Shown piece after piece: positions 18,508 to 43,492 of a DNA stretch of 64,000 bases. Each line of letters opens with the position of its first letter. The first letter of the stretch is position 1. The translations under genes and the position numbers were made by a program. Under the pieces are notes generated by a model, which worked only from the letters and a program-made list of their open reading frames with translations, was not told the DNA's origin and made no database searches. Origin of the DNA: Nanohaloarchaea archaeon SW_7_43_1 (lineage in GTDB: Archaea > Nanohalarchaeota > Nanosalinia > Nanosalinales > Nanosalinaceae). Location: contig PXPE01000001.1 of NCBI GenBank assembly GCA_003009795.1, forward strand, positions 880,739-944,738, given 5' to 3'.

Positions 18508-18823
18508 ACAGTAAATTTAGAAAAGGATGAGACATAAATACTCGACCTGAGTTAATGCGTCCACATCTTACTGACTGACCCGGTTCAGATTGTGAATTAA
18601 GGGGACGTAGAGAAACAAAATGACAAATTCTCATCCTCCATCAAAATCCTCGTTTATCTTCGCAGTAGTCACTCAGTTAGCTACAAAAGACTGTGATTAT
18701 AGGAACTTCTTGCTGTGCAGTAATTCCAGAAGCCGCTTATGATCAATTCTAAACATAGGCTCAACTAGATATCAAACGATTCATTCAAAAGAATGTCAAG
18801 AGAACAATGAAATACAGCAAATG
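18508..18823. other. Intergenic stretch without a supported gene
   Basis: Between the bcp start and tRNA-Leu I find no credible open frame. The left end holds the bcp promoter on the minus strand (TATTTATG near 18535). The 12-mer TGAATTAAGGGG near 18592 recurs near 21773 in front of the coiled-coil gene. No clear RNA motif set is present. Confidence 0.5.
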
Positions 18824-18974
18824 CCGGGGTAGCCAAGTGGTCAAAGAACTCTCCAGCTCAGCTGAAGTGCATTCATCTGTAAGAATGCTCTGGGATTTAT
18901 CCTAGAAGTTTGAAGGCGACGGACTCAAGATCCGTTCCCGCAGGGGTTCGCAGGTTCGAGTCCTGTCCCCGGCA
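18824..18974 (+). tRNA. tRNA-Leu (anticodon CAA) interrupted by an intron in the D arm
   Basis: Acceptor GCCGGGG (18824-18830) pairs fully with CCCCGGC (18967-18973), with discriminator A. The anticodon arm ACGGA/TCCGT has the loop CTCAAGA, which gives CAA. The long variable arm and the T loop (TTCGAGT) are normal for Leu. The D arm is split: removing 18847-18915 restores a normal Leu D arm with GCC/GGC pairing and the run AAAGGCGACGG. The 3' CCA is not encoded. Confidence 0.9.
18847..18915 (+). other. Non-canonical tRNA intron (69 bases, D-arm position 22/23 or 23/24)
   Basis: The 5' exon CAAA (18842-18845) can pair with TTTG at the intron end (18909-18912). Three-base segments GAA and AAG on the two sides fit a relaxed bulge-helix-bulge motif cut by archaeal tRNA endonuclease. 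The exact boundary is ambiguous by one base because a G occurs at both ends. No reading frame is present inside. Confidence 0.8.
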
Positions 18975-31532: not shown

Positions 31533-31682
31533 GCGGGGGTAGCCAAGTGGTCAAAGGCGCAGCGTTGAGGTATGGTCTTTCTTGAGCGGGAGCAAAAGAT
31601 GACCATTCGAGAAAATCTATGATTTTCGACTGCAAATGCGCTGTCCTGTAGAGGTTCCGGGGTTCAAATCCTCGCTCCCGCA
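31533..31682 (+). tRNA. tRNA-Leu (anticodon GAG) with canonical anticodon-loop intron
   Basis: Acceptor GCGGGGG pairs with CTCCCGC (one G-T), discriminator A at 31682. The anticodon stem CAGCG (31560-31564) pairs with CGCTG (31639-31643). Without the insert the loop is TTGAGGG, anticodon GAG. The D arm, variable arm and T arm (CGGGG-TTCAAAT-CCTCG) are typical of Leu. Confidence 0.93.
31571..31637 (+). other. Canonical tRNA intron, position 37/38 (67 bases)
   Basis: The intron lies after position 37 of tRNA-Leu(GAG). It folds on itself through ATGGTC (31572-31577) with GACCAT (31601-31606). TTG of the exon can pair with CAA near the 3' end, consistent with a bulge-helix-bulge splice site. No coding content. 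Confidence 0.85.

Positions 31683-41746: not shown

Positions 41747-43492
<1,746 letters not shown>

Follow-up and report, generated by a model that had tools for sequence, protein, structure and literature searches.

A predicted D-arm intron with a relaxed bulge-helix-bulge in the tRNA-Leu(CAA) gene of a nanohaloarchaeon with a single alpha-type EndA gene

This analysis revealed that the only tRNA-Leu(CAA) gene found in Nanohaloarchaea archaeon SW_7_43_1 is interrupted in its D arm by 69 nt, for which we consider a non-canonical bulge-helix-bulge (BHB) intron, cut out by the endonuclease EndA and followed by joining of the exons by RtcB, to be the best explanation, with a probability of roughly 0.87. 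The gene is located in a window of 64,000 nucleotides, which is the whole stretch of DNA that was analysed, and its parts are listed in Table 1. The host is a tiny salt-loving symbiotic archaeon, which its sequence places in the Nanohaloarchaeota (DPANN). Its genome consists of a single contig of 956,550 bp and is 98.95% complete, and its nearest named relative is Nanohaloarchaea archaeon SW_4_43_9, referred to here as the sister.

Table 1. Interrupted tRNA genes of the host and predicted splice-site elements of tRNA-Leu(CAA); positions are those of the window unless preceded by C1
Feature	Position	Strand	Remarks
tRNA-Leu(CAA) gene, interrupted	18823..18974	+	152 nt
Exon 1: acceptor 5' strand and D arm through position 23	18823..18846	+	24 nt; sister genome identical
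Intron of Leu(CAA) at 23/24 (D arm)	18847..18915	+	69 nt
Exon 2: remaining D stem, anticodon CAA, variable arm, T arm, acceptor 3' strand	18916..18974	+	59 nt
Central helix, 5' strand UCAA (exon; D-loop 20-21)	18841..18844	+
Central helix, 3' strand UUGA (intron 3' end)	18910..18913	+
5' bulge AGA	18845..18847	+	predicted cut after second base
3' bulge AGG	18914..18916	+	predicted cut after second base
Inner helix, 5' strand ACU	18848..18850	+	partner AGU 18907-18909
tRNA-Leu(GAG)	31533..31682	+	67-nt intron at 37/38 (31571-31637)
tRNA-Val(TAC)			intron at 22/23
tRNA-Gln(TTG)			introns at 21/22 and 37/38
Initiator tRNA-Met	C1:855263-855410 (L058)		introns in D arm and at 29/30

The unspliced gene was called neither by ARAGORN nor by Rfam at the gathering threshold, and in a genome-wide Rfam search the locus appeared only as a partial match below threshold (23.4 bits). 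Once the 69 nt were taken out, ARAGORN recognised a tRNA-Leu(caa) of 83 nt with a full cloverleaf, in which the predicted exon-exon junction lies between ...GGUCAAAG and GCGACGG... The preliminary description, which had proposed a D-arm intron in an otherwise textbook tRNA-Leu, was thus borne out, and a BHB-type intron is the best reading of it. The gene starts one base further 5' than the 18824 proposed, and the junction, placed there at 22-24, was narrowed to 23/24 by the BHB fit. A second intact tRNA-Leu(CAA) gene, named there as part of what would refute the reading, was searched for among Rfam, BLAST and B-box matches in the 956,550-bp genome, and none was found.

As AAG is present at both junctions of the intron, four placements lead to one and the same mature tRNA, and the boundaries are fixed to within a 3-base slide. 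The placement at 23/24 is the only one that provides a perfect 4-bp central helix together with a 3-bp inner helix and 3-nt bulges; the choice among the sliding junctions was made by BHB score, which introduces a slight bias toward the BHB model. Applied to this placement, the rule of a cut after the second bulge base, borrowed from canonical 37/38 introns, yields exactly the correct tRNA-Leu(CAA). The layout was drawn on the sister sequence, which is identical to the host gene at these positions. The outer helix is weak and the inner helix is present, making this a relaxed form only, as had been suggested. The CAAA/TTTG pairing reported with it does exist but is shifted by one base, UCAA/UUGA being the better match. 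A comparable motif occurred in 21 of 20,000 shuffles of the intron.

The energetics are the weakest point of the BHB reading. When the exon stems are held fixed in nearest-neighbour folding, the BHB form lies 2.7 kcal/mol above the optimum in the host and 3.9 kcal/mol above it in the sister, and the central helix of the host has a low pair probability. The BHB is the favoured fold of Leu(CAA) in two relatives (G005 and G007), with the exon stems likewise fixed. When it is enforced in the host, the D stem acts as the outer helix and the 3' site is located in an asymmetric internal loop, which corresponds to a relaxed BHB. Factors that could favour this fold include high salt, modification, protein binding and co-transcriptional folding.

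The comparison of D-arm introns across genomes provides further evidence. A D-arm intron at 21/22 of tRNA-Gln(TTG/CTG) was found in eight genes of seven genomes, and in these introns GGYY of the D loop pairs with the intron's own 3' end; the D loop is the partner in the central helix not only of Leu(CAA) but also of other D-arm introns (Gln, Val). The inner helix of the eight Gln introns is 100% paired, as against 50% when the arms are permuted, and none of 5000 permutations reached 100%. Three to five pair types were observed at each of the four positions tested (CUAU/GUAG, CCAA/UUGG, CUCU/AGAG, GUCG/CGAC, GCUC/GAGC, CAUC/GAUG and UACC/GGUA). Across all 15 D-arm introns, the inner helix is 88% paired versus 47% after permutation (0 of 5000 reached 88%), and the central helix is 90% paired, a value reached by 5 of 5000 permutations. 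In the Gln set taken by itself, pairing of the central helix is no higher than under permutation, as there is hardly any sequence variation in it. Some of the intron placements in these sets were chosen in part by BHB score, and the permutation control removes this small bias incompletely. Covariation was therefore observed for the D-arm introns as a class, and the Leu(CAA) intron itself contributes compatible changes between two sequences. This sequence comparison argues strongly that, within the family, BHB introns of the D arm are functional elements.

In the proposed mechanism, UUGA at the intron's 3' end would pair with UCAA of the D loop in the precursor, placing both splice sites in small bulges. 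A single alpha-type EndA, acting as a homotetramer, would cut both bulges and leave 2',3'-cyclic phosphate and 5'-OH ends, RtcB would ligate the exons, and the D loop would enter its normal contacts with the T loop once the intron is removed. Since the pairing between intron and D loop would block both these contacts and the L-shape, splicing is probably early and obligatory. Transcription, cutting, ligation, the tetramer and the exact cut sites are what we infer in this explanation.

A single EndA gene was found in the host genome (C1 about 853471-854016; ORF of 181 aa), which is full length and comprises both the N-terminal and the catalytic domain. A single gene of about 180 aa with these two domains is the arrangement of alpha4-type enzymes, and we regard this EndA as alpha-type, with a predicted homotetrameric assembly. 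We also examined the aligned sequences for the loops CSL and ASL, each with a conserved Lys (K-P/V-K/R in CSL, Y160-K161 in ASL). Both are absent from the host enzyme and from all nanohaloarchaeal EndA aligned, at the site before the 'LSLxEA' strand of the N domain, while a CSL-like insert ('GIRKPK...') is visible in the crenarchaeal-type EndA of two other genomes (G030 and G037). In every nanohaloarchaeal EndA aligned, the stretch from the catalytic Tyr to the catalytic His is longer by about seven residues (VNPYKEGPKEEREH in the host), with the conserved pattern VNPYKxGxK-xxxHTK; the Tyr and His of the host are those that we take to be catalytic from the alignment to known enzymes. With regard to the ligase, the RtcB open frame of 951 aa (G000:C1:317691-320414, minus strand) matches in two separate segments, which suggests an intein inside the ligase.

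An epsilon-type or heteromeric endonuclease had been suggested in the preliminary description, and splicing by EndA together with a diverged structural subunit, or with an accessory protein missed by the Pfam models, is the alternative that survives best, although we consider it unlikely. Non-canonical introns elsewhere accompany heteromeric or three-unit enzymes (PMC4090602, PMC12397907), and a highly diverged subunit could escape detection. Nevertheless, PF01974 (E up to 1) and PF02778 (E up to 10) both return the identical single gene in the host, with no second subunit, whereas second copies do turn up with this search in other archaeal genomes, and the EndA that is found lacks neither domain.

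The sister keeps the Leu(CAA) intron with both splice-site regions unchanged. Exons and aligned intron differ by three substitutions (two in the intron, one in an exon), in addition to a 9-nt indel in a hairpin loop, and the flanks are far more diverged. One of the two intron substitutions lies within a hairpin loop and the other lengthens a hairpin, so that both are compatible with the structure. The intron at 23/24 is known from these two sequences. Of the other genomes in the order, 17 have a Leu(CAA) gene without an intron, three (G005, G007 and G010) have one with a D-arm intron at 21/22, and two (G003 and G014) have one with a 37/38 intron; G007 and G014 belong to the same genus. The Leu introns at 21/22 and at 23/24 share only a short TCTCCA similarity. 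The host shares its D-arm intron of Val(TAC) with the sister (98%) and with one genome from a different genus (92%). The initiator tRNA-Met of the sister has introns at 29/30 and 37/38 and an uninterrupted D arm, in contrast to that of the host, which points to intron turnover within one genus and in an essential tRNA.

These comparisons make it very improbable that the gene is a dying pseudogene with a random insertion, its UUG codons being read by tRNA-Leu(UAA). Such wobble reading is possible in principle, so that tRNA-Leu(CAA) need not be essential; usage of the TTG codon in the host is ordinary (9.8 per 1000). Decay is contradicted by the conservation of exons, insert and splice-site pairings in the sister, by the perfect structure of the mature tRNA, by the covariation of the equivalent architecture in other tRNAs and by the presence of two introns in the indispensable initiator tRNA. 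That the insert is a self-splicing or mobile element (group I/II, MITE) with a different route of removal can be regarded as extremely improbable: the 16S gene in this window does contain a group I intron, but no Rfam family matches the Leu(CAA) insert, and BHB pairings sit at its exact junctions. An assembly or sequencing artefact, conceivable for a host sequence that is a single contig, is next to impossible given the presence of this intron in the separate genome of the sister.

The BHB-type intron of Leu(CAA) is not isolated in the host. About 36 tRNA genes were recovered from Rfam, BLAST and B-box matches, with the stretches around tRNA candidates examined, and approximately half of them bear introns. 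Four genes, Leu(CAA), Val(TAC), Gln(TTG) and initiator Met, have non-canonical introns; the D-arm cut position of the initiator Met is ambiguous by two bases. Two first automatic calls were rejected: Arg(TCT) at 290299 proved to be Gln(TTG) with two introns, and Val at 855263 the initiator Met with two introns. The canonical 37/38 intron previously described in tRNA-Leu(GAG) was confirmed by Rfam and ARAGORN, and its central helix is itself imperfect.

Non-canonical tRNA introns (20/21, 22/23, 25/26, 29/30 and others) are known from Crenarchaeota, Thaumarchaeota and Nanoarchaeota (PMC4090602, PMC8450103). Those of the host resemble them in lying off 37/38, with the D arm among the known sites, in having BHB or relaxed BHB junctions, and in occurring alongside 37/38 introns and genes with two introns in a single genome. 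They differ in the host phylum and in the single alpha-type endonuclease gene. The preliminary description had associated introns off 37/38 mainly with Thermoproteales and a few other lineages; the host, a member of Nanohaloarchaeota, adds a case that is not Thermoproteales-like. For this phylum, intron counts were all that a non-exhaustive literature search yielded, namely 15 intron-bearing genes among the 39 tRNA genes of Nanohalococcus and 4 among the 38 of Nanohalovita (PMC10266531), and no description of its non-canonical introns or its EndA was found. D-arm introns themselves are already known from other archaeal phyla, and it is the lineage for which no report was found; some of these introns may already be listed in tRNAscan-SE 2.0 database outputs. 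As ARAGORN and Rfam miss D-arm-interrupted genes, the tRNA counts for Nanohaloarchaeota may be low.

The host EndA matches the alpha4 enzyme of Methanocaldococcus jannaschii (1a79) over residues 4-181 (E 1.3e-28) and is similar in length class, in its two domains and in being encoded by a single gene. It differs in a 7-residue insertion directly before the catalytic His, and the host genome bears non-canonical introns. The epsilon2 EndA of Candidatus Micrarchaeum acidiphilum ARMAN-2 (4fz2; PMC12397907) and the heteromeric EndA of Nanoarchaeum equitans (3iey) also belong to DPANN, and both align with the host enzyme along a lengthened Tyr-His stretch. However, the former has the ASL loop (Y160-K161), which the host enzyme lacks, and the latter consists of two subunits, in contrast to the single gene of the host.

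According to the accepted correlation, introns are few and canonical where the endonuclease is a single-gene alpha4 or alpha2 enzyme, and diverse where it has extra loops or is heteromeric. The 2014 review reports that alpha4 and alpha2 enzymes accompany single canonical introns (PMC4090602), and the enzyme expected from the host sequence is therefore not of the type known for such sites. The 2025 paper on the ARMAN-2 structure presents CSL, ASL and a eukaryotic loop as convergent devices for relaxed substrates and notes that species bearing CSL or ASL tend toward diversified introns (PMC12397907). The nanohaloarchaeal combination of diverse D-arm introns with a single alpha-type gene, which lacks the known loops and has a lineage-specific insertion near the active site, fits neither pattern, and the introns of the host argue against a restriction of alpha4 enzymes to canonical BHB substrates. 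We hypothesize that the Tyr-His insertion may be a functional substitute for CSL or ASL. A homotetrameric EndA of these archaea, lacking CSL and ASL, might represent a further, independent route to the cutting of non-canonical introns, in which the conserved Tyr-His loop would steady relaxed sites and permit rapid gain, loss and sliding of D-arm introns throughout the phylum. With such a combination, the loop-acquisition model can be put to a direct test, using a small protein that can be expressed and RNA substrates that are short.

Several minor observations were made. The 16S rRNA gene (41747 to about 43493) has its group I intron (window 43167-43442, plus strand; Rfam 58.5 bits) close to the 3' end; as a group I intron at SSU position 1498 has already been published from Nanohaloarchaeota (PMC6125680), this one looks like a further member. 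The host has a tRNA-Ile(UAU) with a 37/38 intron (C1:505732-505860, L046), an uncommon isoacceptor that, in Nanoarchaeum and Korarchaeum, stands in for Ile2(CAU) (PMC8450103). Of the host tRNA candidates examined, none was recognised as tRNA-Trp, the gene for which may be split or interrupted several times. A 3' piece resembling a T arm and acceptor is present at C1:593861 (L069), as is a degenerate His-like tRNA at C1:612157-612223 (L057). Among the other genomes, G031 (94% complete, about 0.6 Mb) has tRNA genes that look intron-containing and gave no EndA match at E 1; its endonuclease is possibly diverged. The Leu(CAG) gene of G024 also bears an intron. Finally, in several relatives a tRNA gene is preceded, about 55-66 bases 5' of it, by a copy of its own first 15 bases (L025 of G008, 1414-1480; L028 of G014; L163 of G014, 1420-1478; L007 of G002, 1358-1480). 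These upstream copies are possibly an integration or duplication footprint; in L025 and L028 the copy is followed by an imperfect reverse complement of itself, forming a hairpin, and G002 has two copies.
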